A stretch of 64,000 bases of DNA from Pseudopedobacter sp. (lineage in GTDB: Bacteria; Bacteroidota; Bacteroidia; Sphingobacteriales; Sphingobacteriaceae). Made by a program: the position numbers and the translations under genes. The stretch lies in the NCBI GenBank assembly GCA_014378105.1, contig JACMOI010000010.1:57584-121583 (forward strand). Direction: 5' to 3'. Under the pieces are notes generated by a model. It was not told the DNA's origin. It saw only the letters and a program-made list of their open reading frames with translations, and searched no databases. This document shows positions 4,136-63,999 of this stretch, in pieces. How positions within the stretch are numbered: position 1 is the first letter of the stretch; each line of letters begins with the position of its first letter.

Positions 4136-5821
4136 TTAATCGGCCATTTCTAAACTTTCCCAAGATTCTTTACGGTAATAGCTAAACATTAACCAAGCTA
4201 CGCCAGTCATGATAACAGCTGAAATGGTAATTGCCCATTCATAATTTACGGCCCAATTGTGTAAAAAGCCTAAGCCTAATGGTATCAAAATAATGAAGAA
4301 AGTGAGAAAGGTTTTTCCACCTCGTTTAATATTTATAGGCTGCGAAAAAGGGAAGCCTTTCACCTGAAATAACGCTACAAAAATACCATATATGGCGCCT
4401 ATCATAAAAGCTAAAACAAGATCATTGATCACTTTTGGTCCCCAAAACACCAAACTGAAAATAGAAACTAGAATAAAATAAGGGAGATAAAACTTAATAA
4501 TAACTGCTTTATACATGCCTGCTAAAAGCGCTCCGGGTTGTTTTAAAGGCGTTGAGAAATAAATCCATGAAGCCTTGTATCTTTCGGTCATACTTACATG
4601 TTGAATTACTGTAGTTAATACAAAACTGGTAAGGTAAAGAATTAGGATATACATATTACCGGCCTTCATATTTTCCCAATTATTGGCAATGCTACCTTTC
4701 TTTTGCATAAAGCCGAAGTACACAAAATAAACCGGCACATATGCAAATGCTGGATAAACTTTTACTTTAAAATCGCGGTAACGGGAAGATAAAAGCCAGG
4801 TAATTTTGAATCCTGCGTTTTCAATTGGTTTTGGCGAAACCAGTTTAGCAACCGCATTCATAAAGCCTCTGGATGCTCCTTTACCTTCTGAGGATATAAT
4901 GGTGGCATCATCTCCGCTGGCGCTAATAGCGGATAATTTTTGATTGAAACCTGGGGCTAAAACTTTTACGACCAACAGTAAAGAAAGAATCGGACTTACC
5001 AATGCAATAACCGCATAGATATAAGTTAAAATATCTGCGGATTTAAAATTGACTGCTAATTCATGTAGAGAAGCAATCCACATAGGCGGAACGACGGCTA
5101 AAATTTTATAATCTTTAATGTTAAAATCCTTTAACATACTGGCGCCTATCAGCTTTGGAAGGGTGTAATAAGCTGCAAAAATTAATACAGAAAAAATGAT
5201 TTGAAAGTAGGAGATAAAGTCTTTAAACTTTTGTGGACTAGTGAGTTTTAAAACAATCAGATAAATGATATTTACCAAAAAAATGCTGAGTACTGTTGCG
5301 ATTAAAACTTCCAATAAAAACATTAAACCAGAAATTGGTCCTTGCCAAAAAGAAAAAATCATCCCCGAAAGGGAAATAGCCAAAGCCATTTTTGCAGTAT
5401 GAATCCCGATGTGTAAAATTCGAGAAACGGTAAATGTGGCTTCAGAAACTGGGCGAGGTAAAATGATATAATTGTCGCGAACATCAATTAATACACTGGT
5501 AAAATCAGAGATTAAGGTAATGGCCAGCATCACCATAAAAGCTGAGAAATAAATGGTATGACCCACATAAGGTGTATCAACGGTGCCTAAAATAATTGTA
5601 AAAAAGCCACCGGTGATAAAAAGAAAAAACATGGTTAGCCAGCTTGAATTGTTGGTTTCTTTTTTCTTTTTATTCTTTTGCTGGTTGTAAACATTGGGTC
5701 TGCGGTCATCCATTTTCATTTTAGTGGTAAGGATGATGCGAAGATGATCTGCATTTACGCCAAAGCGGTTAAAAACCGATTTAAACAAGAGTACAAAGTT
5801 GATGATGTATTTATTGATCAT
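4136..5821 (-). CDS. ABC transporter permease (exporter-type, multi-TM)
   Basis: 561 aa with ~12 hydrophobic segments; immediately downstream of an ABC ATPase on the same strand. Confidence 0.75.
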   Translation of the reverse strand: MINKYIINFVLLFKSVFNRFGVNADHLRIILTTKMKMDDRRPNVYNQQKNKKKKETNNSSWLTMFFLFITGGFFTIILGTVDTPYVGHTIYFSAFMVMLAITLISDFTSVLIDVRDNYIILPRPVSEATFTVSRILHIGIHTAKMALAISLSGMIFSFWQGPISGLMFLLEVLIATVLSIFLVNIIYLIVLKLTSPQKFKDFISYFQIIFSVLIFAAYYTLPKLIGASMLKDFNIKDYKILAVVPPMWIASLHELAVNFKSADILTYIYAVIALVSPILSLLLVVKVLAPGFNQKLSAISASGDDATIISSEGKGASRGFMNAVAKLVSPKPIENAGFKITWLLSSRYRDFKVKVYPAFAYVPVYFVYFGFMQKKGSIANNWENMKAGNMYILILYLTSFVLTTVIQHVSMTERYKASWIYFSTPLKQPGALLAGMYKAVIIKFYLPYFILVSIFSLVFWGPKVINDLVLAFMIGAIYGIFVALFQVKGFPFSQPINIKRGGKTFLTFFIILIPLGLGFLHNWAVNYEWAITISAVIMTGVAWLMFSYYRKESWESLEMAD

Positions 5822-8390: not shown

Positions 8391-9158
8391 TTGCATCAAG
8401 AAGTAGTTCTACCTTACATATCAGCAATAAATCGAAAACTTTTAACCATAATACATTTATTAAATGGGTATTCTTTTGGTGATTTAAAACCTCTTTTAAA
8501 TCAAACATCATTCGATTGGATTAGCTGTTATGATTTAATAAGGTCATTATATGAATGCTTCTTACAGTTAAATTTTGTAGCAAATAGATACAAAAGCGAT
8601 AATGAGAAACTTTTTATAGCAAGATGGTTTCATATAAGATTTTTTAAAGAAAGAGCTGAGTTAGCTAAGTCTAACAAAACAATTAATGTTAATCATAAAT
8701 TACAATTAGAATCGGAAATACTGAAAATCATGAATCTTGAAAATTTAATTATTAAGGATTGTGCCGAATTAAAGAGACGAGAAGAGAATGAGTTCAAATG
8801 GAAAAAGAATTCATTATTTAATAATTGGCCCAAGCCAGAGAAACTTTACTCTTTTGCTAATATTCATGAAAATAAACATAGAGTTTTTTATAAAATGCAT
8901 TCTATCTACAGTCATTCTGAGCCTTTGGCTATTTTACAGATTAGATCAAGAAATAAGATAACTGCTAAGCAAGTAAACAATTTAAATTCTTCGCATGGAA
9001 GACAATCTTATTTGATTGGATTAGTAAGTTTTTATTCTCTTAAAAATGTTTTTAAAGGAGTAAAAGTTAGACTTGAAAAGGATAAAGAATTAGAGATGAA
9101 ATGTTTAAAGGCATGTGAGTATTTTAGTTCGGATACAAAAGAAGATGAAACATTTTAA
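8391..9158 (+). CDS. Hypothetical protein, DUF5677-like; true start unclear
   Basis: Track start is a TTG; the frame stays open upstream (about 8283-8390, ...DSERILNSILKLSAQYFEVIDEIGVIQITGKPIE...) with no ATG seen; 'DLIRSLYECFLQLNFVAN' resembles DUF5677. Confidence 0.55.
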   Translation: MHQEVVLPYISAINRKLLTIIHLLNGYSFGDLKPLLNQTSFDWISCYDLIRSLYECFLQLNFVANRYKSDNEKLFIARWFHIRFFKERAELAKSNKTINVNHKLQLESEILKIMNLENLIIKDCAELKRREENEFKWKKNSLFNNWPKPEKLYSFANIHENKHRVFYKMHSIYSHSEPLAILQIRSRNKITAKQVNNLNSSHGRQSYLIGLVSFYSLKNVFKGVKVRLEKDKELEMKCLKACEYFSSDTKEDETF

Positions 9159-61161: not shown

Positions 61162-62088
61162 ATGAAATCAATAAAAGTTTTTGCACCAGCAACAGTCGCC
61201 AATGTAGTTTGTGGCTTCGATATTTTAGGTTTTGCAGTGAATGAACCAGGTGACGAGCTCATCATGGAAATGACAAGCAAACCCGGCGTAAATATCATAT
61301 CTATTGAAGGAGACGAAGGAAAATTACCTTTAGATCCCACAAAAAATACGGTGAGCGCAAGTGTGATCAATCTACTGAAAAAACTAGAAAGAGAAGATGT
61401 TGGCTTAAACATCAAACTGAAAAAGAAGATGCCAATGGGTAGTGGTTTGGGTTCAAGTTCTGCAAGTGCGGTGGCAGGTTTATTTGCCGCCAACGAACTA
61501 TTGGGAAAACCGCTTTCTAAAATGGAGTTGTTGCCTTTCGCAATGGAAGGCGAGGCTTTGGCTTGTGGCCATGGGCATGCGGATAACGTTGCTCCAGCTT
61601 TATTTGGGGGTTTCACCCTGATTAAAAGTTACGAGCCTCTGGAAGTGATTGCACTGCCGGTTCCAAAATTATATTGTGCTTTGCTGTATCCTCATGTAGA
61701 TGTTCCGACTAGAGATGCCCGTCAAATTATCCGTTCTAAAGTGTTATTGAAAGATGCCGTAACACAATGGGGAAATATCGCGGGCTTAATCAGTTCGCTT
61801 TACACTCAGGATTACGAATTATTGGGAAGATGTATGAAGGATGTGATCATTGAACCGATTCGTTCTATCTTGATTCCTGAATTTGATAAAATGAAAGAAA
61901 TGACCATGGGAAATGGTGCTTTAGGTTTCGGAATTTCAGGTTCTGGTCCAACCGTTTTTGCCTTGTTTAAATCTCCTGAAAATGCCCAAAAATCTTTACG
62001 GGAGATGAAGCAGATGCTTGCAAAACTAGGCATAGAAAGCAATATTTATTTATCAGAAATTAACGAAAAAGGACCGATAGTTTTATGA
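61162..62088 (+). CDS. thrB: Homoserine kinase
   Basis: 'MKSIKVFAPATVANVVCGFDILGFAV', 'PMGSGLGSSSASAVAGLFAAN'. Confidence 0.97.
   Translation: MKSIKVFAPATVANVVCGFDILGFAVNEPGDELIMEMTSKPGVNIISIEGDEGKLPLDPTKNTVSASVINLLKKLEREDVGLNIKLKKKMPMGSGLGSSSASAVAGLFAANELLGKPLSKMELLPFAMEGEALACGHGHADNVAPALFGGFTLIKSYEPLEVIALPVPKLYCALLYPHVDVPTRDARQIIRSKVLLKDAVTQWGNIAGLISSLYTQDYELLGRCMKDVIIEPIRSILIPEFDKMKEMTMGNGALGFGISGSGPTVFALFKSPENAQKSLREMKQMLAKLGIESNIYLSEINEKGPIVL
62047..62088. repeat. Direct repeat, upstream copy (functional thrB 3' end)
   Basis: TAT TTA TCA GAA ATT AAC GAA AAA GGA CCG ATA GTT TTA TGA; 36/42 nt identical to 62584-62625. Confidence 0.9.
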
Positions 62089-62103
62089 AATTAAGTTGAT
62101 ATT

Positions 62104-62583
62104 ATGACGTATATAACTAATTATCACCACTTTCAATTAACAGATATGTTTTTAGGATTAAAAAATATTTGTGTTATAAGGTTGAGTGGGGAAATCCATA
62201 AGTATAATATAGTACTTAAAAATCCTTGTGTTCATAAAAACCCTAACTGTCAAAGGTTAAAAAAAAGTTATGTAAAATCTGGAACTATTAAGCCAAATAG
62301 TGGGTCTAATATTATTATTAATTATCCCATTAAACACCTAATTGATAATACTTTTGAAGAAATTGATGATACTGTTTCAGAATTTAGGAACTCGCTATAT
62401 TTTCATGCTGGATTTAACGAATGTCAATTTTGTTCTTTTGTAAATAGTTTGAAATACTTAAATGAAAATGATTATGTGACATCAAAGGAATGGGGAATTC
62501 AGTATAATGAAGATATTGCTTATTTAAAAAAGTATTTTAAAGACAATCCAGATGAATTAGACTCATGGCTCGGTTTAGATTAG
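62104..62583 (+). CDS. Hypothetical Cys-containing protein encoded on an islet between thrB and thrC
   Basis: 159 aa ORF, AT-rich relative to neighbours; 'NPCVHKNPNCQ' and 'NECQFCSF'; no family recognised. Confidence 0.65.
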   Translation: MTYITNYHHFQLTDMFLGLKNICVIRLSGEIHKYNIVLKNPCVHKNPNCQRLKKSYVKSGTIKPNSGSNIIINYPIKHLIDNTFEEIDDTVSEFRNSLYFHAGFNECQFCSFVNSLKYLNENDYVTSKEWGIQYNEDIAYLKKYFKDNPDELDSWLGLD

Positions 62584-62625
62584 TATATATCAGAAATTAA
62601 CGAAAAAGGACCAATTATTTTATAG
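62584..62625. repeat. Direct repeat, downstream copy (orphan thrB 3' end)
   Basis: TAT ATA TCA GAA ATT AAC GAA AAA GGA CCA ATT ATT TTA TAG = YISEINEKGPIIL*. Confidence 0.9.
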
Positions 62626-62659
62626 TCGTAAGACTTTAGTATCCAGACGCTCATAAGGT

Positions 62660-62691
62660 CTTGATACTTGATACTCATTACTTGATACTCG
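62660..62691. repeat. 7-nt tandem array upstream of thrC
   Basis: CTTGATA CTTGATA CTCATTA CTTGATA CTCG in exact 7-nt register. Confidence 0.75.
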
Positions 62692-62697
62692 AAAGAA

Positions 62698-63999
62698 ATG
62701 AAATTATACTCCACCAAAAACCACCACTTGTCAGTTGATTTTGAAACAGCGGTTTTCAATAGTCTTCCGGCTGATAAAGGCTTATATATGCCGACTTTTT
62801 TTCCTCAGATAGATAAAGAGATGATGAGCGAATGGGGTAAAAAATCTTTGTCTGAAATTGCTTTTGATATGGCTTATGCACTATTGAAAGATGATATTTC
62901 TGCGGAGGATTTAAAAGCAATTATAGATGAGGCTACCAATTTTGATGCCCCTTTGCATCAATTGGAAAATGATGTTTTTGTTTTGGAACTTTTCCATGGA
63001 CCTTCTTTAGCCTTTAAAGATTTTGGTGGGCGATTTATGAGCCGGATTATGGCCCATTTTTTAAAGAGAGAGCAAAAGGAAATTCAGATTTTGGTAGCAA
63101 CTTCTGGAGATACAGGTGGTGCAGTAGCTTTAGGATTTTTAAATGTCCCGGGGATTAAAGTGACCATTTTATATCCGAAAGGAAAGGTGAGCCTAATACA
63201 GGAATTGCAATTGACCACTAATGGAAATAATATTGAAGCCATTGCCATAGATGGAACTTTTGACGATTGCCAAGCTTTGGTGAAGAAAGCTTTTCACGAT
63301 GAGGAATTGAATGGGAAATTGAATTTAACTTCTGCAAATTCTATCAATATCAGTAGATTAATTCCACAGATGTTTTACTATGCCAATACTTATGCTAAAC
63401 TGAAAGACCAATTTGAGGAACTAATTTTTGTGACGCCAAGTGGAAATTTCGGTAACATTGCAGCCGGAATGATGGCCTGGAAAATGGGTTTACCGATTTC
63501 CAGATTCATTGCAGCTACCAACAGCAATGATATTGTTCCTGAATTTTTAGAGACTGGAATTTACAATGCCCGCCCTTCTGTACAAACTTTAGCCAATGCT
63601 ATGGACGTAGGCGACCCAAGCAATTTTGTGAGAATTCTGGATTTATTTGATGATCAATTACCAGAGCTAAAGGCGATGTTGACTTCTTATGCTTATCATG
63701 ATGATGAGATTAAAAGAGCAATTTCGGAAGTGTATAAAACGAAAGATTATGTAGTTTGTCCGCATATGGCAACAGGTTGTTTAGCGGTTGTAACTGATAA
63801 AATGCTACATCCAAACTTAGAGAAAACGGCTTACGTAGTTTTAGCAACAGCACATCCATGCAAATTTCCAGATGTTTTTTCGGAATTGGGAATTGAGATT
63901 GAAGAGCCTGAGCAGGTGAAGGAAATGTATCAGAAAGAGAAAATAAGTTTAGCTATGGGGAATAGCTTTGAGGAGTTTAAAGCTTTTTTGATGAAATAA
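62698..63999 (+). CDS. thrC: Threonine synthase
   Basis: 'MKLYSTKNHHLSVDFETAV', 'HGPSLAFKDFGGRFMSRIM', 'VATSGDTGGAVALGF'. Confidence 0.97.
   Translation: MKLYSTKNHHLSVDFETAVFNSLPADKGLYMPTFFPQIDKEMMSEWGKKSLSEIAFDMAYALLKDDISAEDLKAIIDEATNFDAPLHQLENDVFVLELFHGPSLAFKDFGGRFMSRIMAHFLKREQKEIQILVATSGDTGGAVALGFLNVPGIKVTILYPKGKVSLIQELQLTTNGNNIEAIAIDGTFDDCQALVKKAFHDEELNGKLNLTSANSINISRLIPQMFYYANTYAKLKDQFEELIFVTPSGNFGNIAAGMMAWKMGLPISRFIAATNSNDIVPEFLETGIYNARPSVQTLANAMDVGDPSNFVRILDLFDDQLPELKAMLTSYAYHDDEIKRAISEVYKTKDYVVCPHMATGCLAVVTDKMLHPNLEKTAYVVLATAHPCKFPDVFSELGIEIEEPEQVKEMYQKEKISLAMGNSFEEFKAFLMK

Follow-up and report, generated by a model that had tools for sequence, protein, structure and literature searches.

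The thrB-thrC junction carries an islet and a second thrB end

The window analysed here, a stretch of 64,000 nucleotides, is the terminal part of a 121,583-base contig and closes on a threonine operon with the gene order thrA, thrB, ORF159, thrC. The genome is assembled in 191 contigs (completeness 97%, contamination 6.4%), and species of Pedobacter and Pelobium are its closest named relatives. The operon features given here lie on the plus strand. thrB (61162-62088) encodes a homoserine kinase of 308 amino acids that scores far above the cut-offs of NCBIfam NF002288 and TIGR00191. thrC (62698-63999), the threonine synthase gene (Pfam PF00291 and PF14821), is followed by a single base to the end of the contig. 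The islet body (62089-62583) lies directly behind thrB; it is low in GC and occurs in a single copy in its own genome.

A repeat search found a second copy of the final 40 bp of thrB (62047-62086) at 62584-62623; the two copies, with a spacing of 537, agree at 36 of 40 positions. This direct repeat, D1, is the strongest found within 4 kb anywhere in the 64-kb window (BLAST E 8.7e-8). The copy attached to thrB ends in TGA; the downstream copy (62584-62625, YISEINEKGPIIL) ends in TAG. The duplication noticed in an earlier note on this DNA is thus real, with a longest exact run of 25 bp and 36/42 identity when the differing stops are counted. The same codon changes were also recovered: two are silent (CCG/CCA and ATA/ATT) and two are conservative replacements (TTA/ATA, L/I; GTT/ATT, V/I). 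The note took them as a sign of coding selection on both ends, for which four changes, two silent and two replacement, are insufficient alone.

Empty sites identify the downstream copy as the resident end

The junctions of relatives, which the earlier note had proposed to compare, lack the islet body in at least nine congeners. In these nine species of the genus set (G001, G003, G004, G005, G006, G007, G008, G010 and G016), thrB and thrC are separated by 72-124 bp with a single thrB end and no ORF. Single thrB ends in the relatives stop with TAG; the exception is G002, which has TAA and a repeat-filled spacer. The downstream copy of the window, together with its tail, aligns without a break through the stop and the spacer with the empty sites of G016 and G003, and the native spacer behind it (62626-62697) is 91% identical to that of G016. 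Because of this TAG stop and alignment, the downstream copy is the old resident end of thrB, displaced. The claim that the original end lies downstream is borne out in this way. The companion claim, that the inserted segment brought a thrB end of its own, fares less well, since the four differences are compatible with a donor end and with a diverged duplication of the target alike. A second thrB end was found in none of 80 GTDB thrB loci (best alternative match 22/42).

Other junctions in the genus are occupied differently. The closest relative, G017 (96% ThrB identity), has a gap of 524 bp between thrB and thrC with an ORF of four-helix-bundle type (by eye), and the junction of G009 holds a two-gene insertion, nucleotidyltransferase- and HEPN-like (by eye). 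Neither contains a copied thrB end, which we count against capture at the gene end. Insertions at this junction thus vary by species: a four-helix-bundle type gene in G017 (L003), a nucleotidyltransferase/HEPN-like pair in G009 (L014) and a block of GATACT-type repeats in G002 (L008). The stretch at 62626-62697 is the clade's own thrB-thrC spacer; it contains GATACT-type repeats that run both ways, and in G002 these are expanded into the tandem block.

ORF159 is an orphan

The cargo, ORF159 (62104-62583), codes for 159 amino acids, is intact, starts 15 bp past the thrB stop and shares its frame with both thrB-end copies. When the islet was shuffled 3000 times (first-order), no ORF of this size arose. 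At about 27% GC (averaged over codon positions), it is A+T-rich compared with thrA, thrB and thrC (37-41%). No family match was found in Pfam, NCBIfam, PADLOC, PHROGs or PDB, no close match in phages, plasmids, GTDB or IMG/VR, and no relative among 301 genomes of the family and 396 drawn from the phylum. Some candidate relatives were dropped because the matches were weak, or lay in unrelated frames or large proteins. The AlphaFold model has a mean pLDDT of 41 and is unusable. The earlier note had remarked that an integrase is missing, and the islet does consist of one ORF without a family match and without a recombinase.

A promoter scan gave promoter-like matches above the shuffle level in the A+T-rich stretch of the islet, and scans of the islet for terminator-like sites and Rfam RNA families gave none. 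Since ORF159 starts only 15 bp from thrB and no terminator-like site was found, it could be transcribed along with the operon. Our guess, by analogy with the pair-gene islets described below, is that it is most likely an accessory gene of a selfish or defence type.

A second displaced end in the same genome

Further cases were sought in part of this genome by looking for repeats and copied C-termini, and one was found (L140, on contig C4). There, the end of a gene for a carboxyl transferase (PF01039) lies at 4358, and a terminal stretch of 93 bp (4277-4369) is copied at 5155-5247. A 66-aa ORF and a nucleotidyltransferase-like gene, frameshifted near its end, lie between the two gene ends, which differ by 10 synonymous codons and 1 replacement (R/K). 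Relative to the G017 allele, the attached end differs at 2 of 81 positions and the displaced end at 13 of 81. Identity to G017 is mostly 98-99% in the ~430 bp before the islet and mostly 71-94% after it. G017 itself is empty at this site, and its spacer resembles the one behind the displaced end.

On its simplest reading, a G017-like donor segment consisting of gene end and cargo would have been added to the resident chromosome, in which the original gene end then remained beyond the cargo. The comparison of alleles favours a donor origin of the attached end. By the pattern of their codon differences, the two copies probably diverged as functional genes before they met. Other matches in the gene-end scan were set aside on inspection as tandem paralogues or intergenic repeats. 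Two single-gene islets, assigned by eye, were also seen in this genome, one GIY-YIG-like (L207, 6705-7145) and one DUF559-like (L201, 11271-11754), both flanked by short intergenic repeats.

Displaced ends recur at other genes

We found the nucleotidyltransferase gene in 97 of 301 family genomes, where its surroundings differ. Among 60 loci of the nucleotidyltransferase pair examined, five, including L140, carry a displaced end of the adjoining gene, and four different genes are involved. Besides the carboxyl transferase gene, these are (by eye) a WD40-type gene in G244 and G149, an rsmA-like gene in G050 and a crp-like gene in G169. The earlier note had suggested looking at other gene 3' ends, and the layout does recur there. 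The displaced WD40-type ends measure 45 and 107 bp at 96% and 90% identity, and the attached end in G244 has gained a new C-terminus. In G050 the displaced end has decayed; in G169 it lies beside the nucleotidyltransferase-type pair.

As controls we used 645 gene ends in GTDB thr loci, one of which has a copy of the gene end only (G013, beside a small-gene islet); apart from a marginal match in Pedobacter alluvionis, described below, the other control matches were tandem paralogues or unrelated. The difference between 5/60 and 1/645 is significant (Fisher 2e-5, or 2e-4 with the WD40 gene counted once), an enrichment that is approximate, because the islet set was picked by homology to L140 and contains it, islet and control genomes differ, and matches were sorted by eye. 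Pooled over four cases, the copies differ by 18 synonymous and 6 replacement codons; half of the changes coming from a dead copy fits these counts (P 0.13), a point against capture of a donor end.

Three further observations were made in thr loci. The G013 islet (L060, 7294-7408 and 8076-8188) is DUF433/DUF5615-like by eye and comes with a partial duplicate and a copy of the 3' end of the convergent neighbour. Pedobacter alluvionis (L126) has, near 9118 and about 800 bp past thrC, a marginal 10-codon match to the thrC C-terminus (QLGVDFEGFK), a possible displaced end. Three Pedobacter thr loci (L104, L113 and L126) carry a repeat-flanked small transposase-like gene, by eye of the REP-associated type, downstream of thrC.

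Proposed capture at gene 3' ends and its alternatives

Our proposal is that the islet between thrB and thrC is foreign in origin and was captured with no integrase involved, the 3' end of thrB serving as its landing site; we give this reading a probability of roughly 0.57. End-anchored homologous recombination is proposed because no recombinase is present, the targets are unrelated and their repeats vary in length, and the copies at L140 appear to have diverged before they met. On the incoming DNA, the cargo ORF would sit behind a thrB 3' end from a different strain or species. RecA-type recombination inside this homologous end would link the DNA to the resident gene, and the other side of the cargo would be connected to the chromosome about 40 bp inside the resident end. 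This far joint may be illegitimate, or a circle with a gene-end fragment may have entered by a single crossover. The incoming end would complete thrB and keep its function, and the resident end would stay on the far side of the cargo. Survival would favour insertions that leave the host gene working, and for this reason gene 3' ends would recur as sites. What we infer is that homologous recombination did the joining, that the DNA arrived by uptake and that the attached end at thrB came from a donor; ComEC- and DprA-family genes in the genome allow for uptake.

Several results count against capture. A mosaic test found no clear imported tract in thrB upstream of the islet, no donor carrying both thrB and ORF159 was found, and the two thrB copies differ by as many replacement as silent changes (2 vs 2). 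Laboratory precedent is mixed. In E. coli, DNA with one-sided homology gave mostly partial gene-end duplications via single crossover of circles (PMC3240628), and as proposed for thrB the foreign DNA was anchored by one homologous end without an integrase. Homology-facilitated illegitimate recombination, in contrast, is known from laboratory events that usually delete resident DNA and do not duplicate it (PMC3240628), which also counts against capture; the event described here is deduced from genomes and is a duplication. At the thrB joint the resident end and spacer are kept and partly duplicated, without the deletion typical of that process. Compared with the microhomology of 3-10 bp that was sought, the joint at 62583/62584 shows a short T/A-rich overlap that is undistinctive in this sequence.

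The main competitor, which we consider unlikely although it deserves weight, is insertion with a long target duplication. The cargo would have duplicated 40 bp of thrB on insertion, by an unspecified mechanism, and the identical copies would then have diverged; in cases like the carboxyl transferase gene the attached copy would later have been refreshed by allelic exchange. The product would be the one described for Helicobacter pylori restriction-modification genes (Nobusato et al. 2000, in the accounts given in PMC1643837 and PMC3031569). As in those accounts, the insert lies between long direct repeats, the empty sites of relatives have a single copy and a mobility gene is lacking. The present cases differ from what they describe in that the repeats have diverged and consist of a gene 3' end, an orphan or a nucleotidyltransferase-type pair serves as cargo, and the attached end at L140 is the allele of a sister species (G017). 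The few thrB differences, two of them replacements, suit this explanation, as does the WD40-type gene of G244, whose attached end has its new C-terminus as if the copied segment had ended before the stop codon. L140 speaks against it: with copies 10 synonymous and 1 replacement codons apart and an attached copy close to the G017 allele, a second event is needed.

Tyrosine-recombinase islands insert at the 3' end of a gene and restore it. We think it improbable that the islets are site-specific elements of this kind that have lost or borrowed their integrase and have gene 3' ends as attachment sites. Such elements usually leave a restored gene end, with the displaced one downstream, and the earlier note had drawn this likeness; the outcome agrees, in that the host gene has regained its end and the old one lies on the far side, but a recombinase, an att core and a shared target were not found. 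Recombinases are absent from the islets, the target genes are unrelated (thrB, carboxyl transferase, WD40-type, rsmA-like and crp-like), and a single cargo family sits at different ones. The repeats range from about 40 to 107 bp with no common or fixed core seen on comparison by eye, and the orientation of the cargo relative to the target gene varies. The repeat search of the islet found no close inverted repeat comparable to an integron attC-like site, and the islet has no significant similarity to a cassette-like array on contig C25 of the same genome. That array (L166, 293-11129) consists of ten or so ~130 bp repeats between short minus-strand genes and resembles a cassette array of the chromosomal kind.

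Local slippage or tandem duplication in thrB with inner divergence, or a chimera of the assembly, is very improbable: ORF159 has no thrB-related profile and a different composition, and while 191 contigs, 6.4% contamination and a contig ending one base after thrC might suggest a chimera, the ORF meets the displaced end at a joint that lies outside shared sequence and that a k-mer chimera would therefore not create, and the structure is repeated in other assemblies.

Implications for small islets

Islets of one or two genes without mobility genes are present in many bacterial genomes, and the displaced ends bear on how such islets move. We suggest, tentatively and at somewhat less than even odds, that the small orphan and toxin-antitoxin-like islets of the Sphingobacteriaceae are general integrase-free passengers, which would travel with the 3' ends of core genes, re-enter through them and leave displaced ends as footprints. 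More broadly, our results suggest that bacteria acquire short gene islets with no integrase involved, gene tails serving as the places where they land. A displaced gene end is a readable footprint of insertion: it marks the resident side and, as in the carboxyl transferase case, may point to the donor lineage. Displaced ends can be counted across genomes, and this makes integrase-free capture testable from sequence alone.
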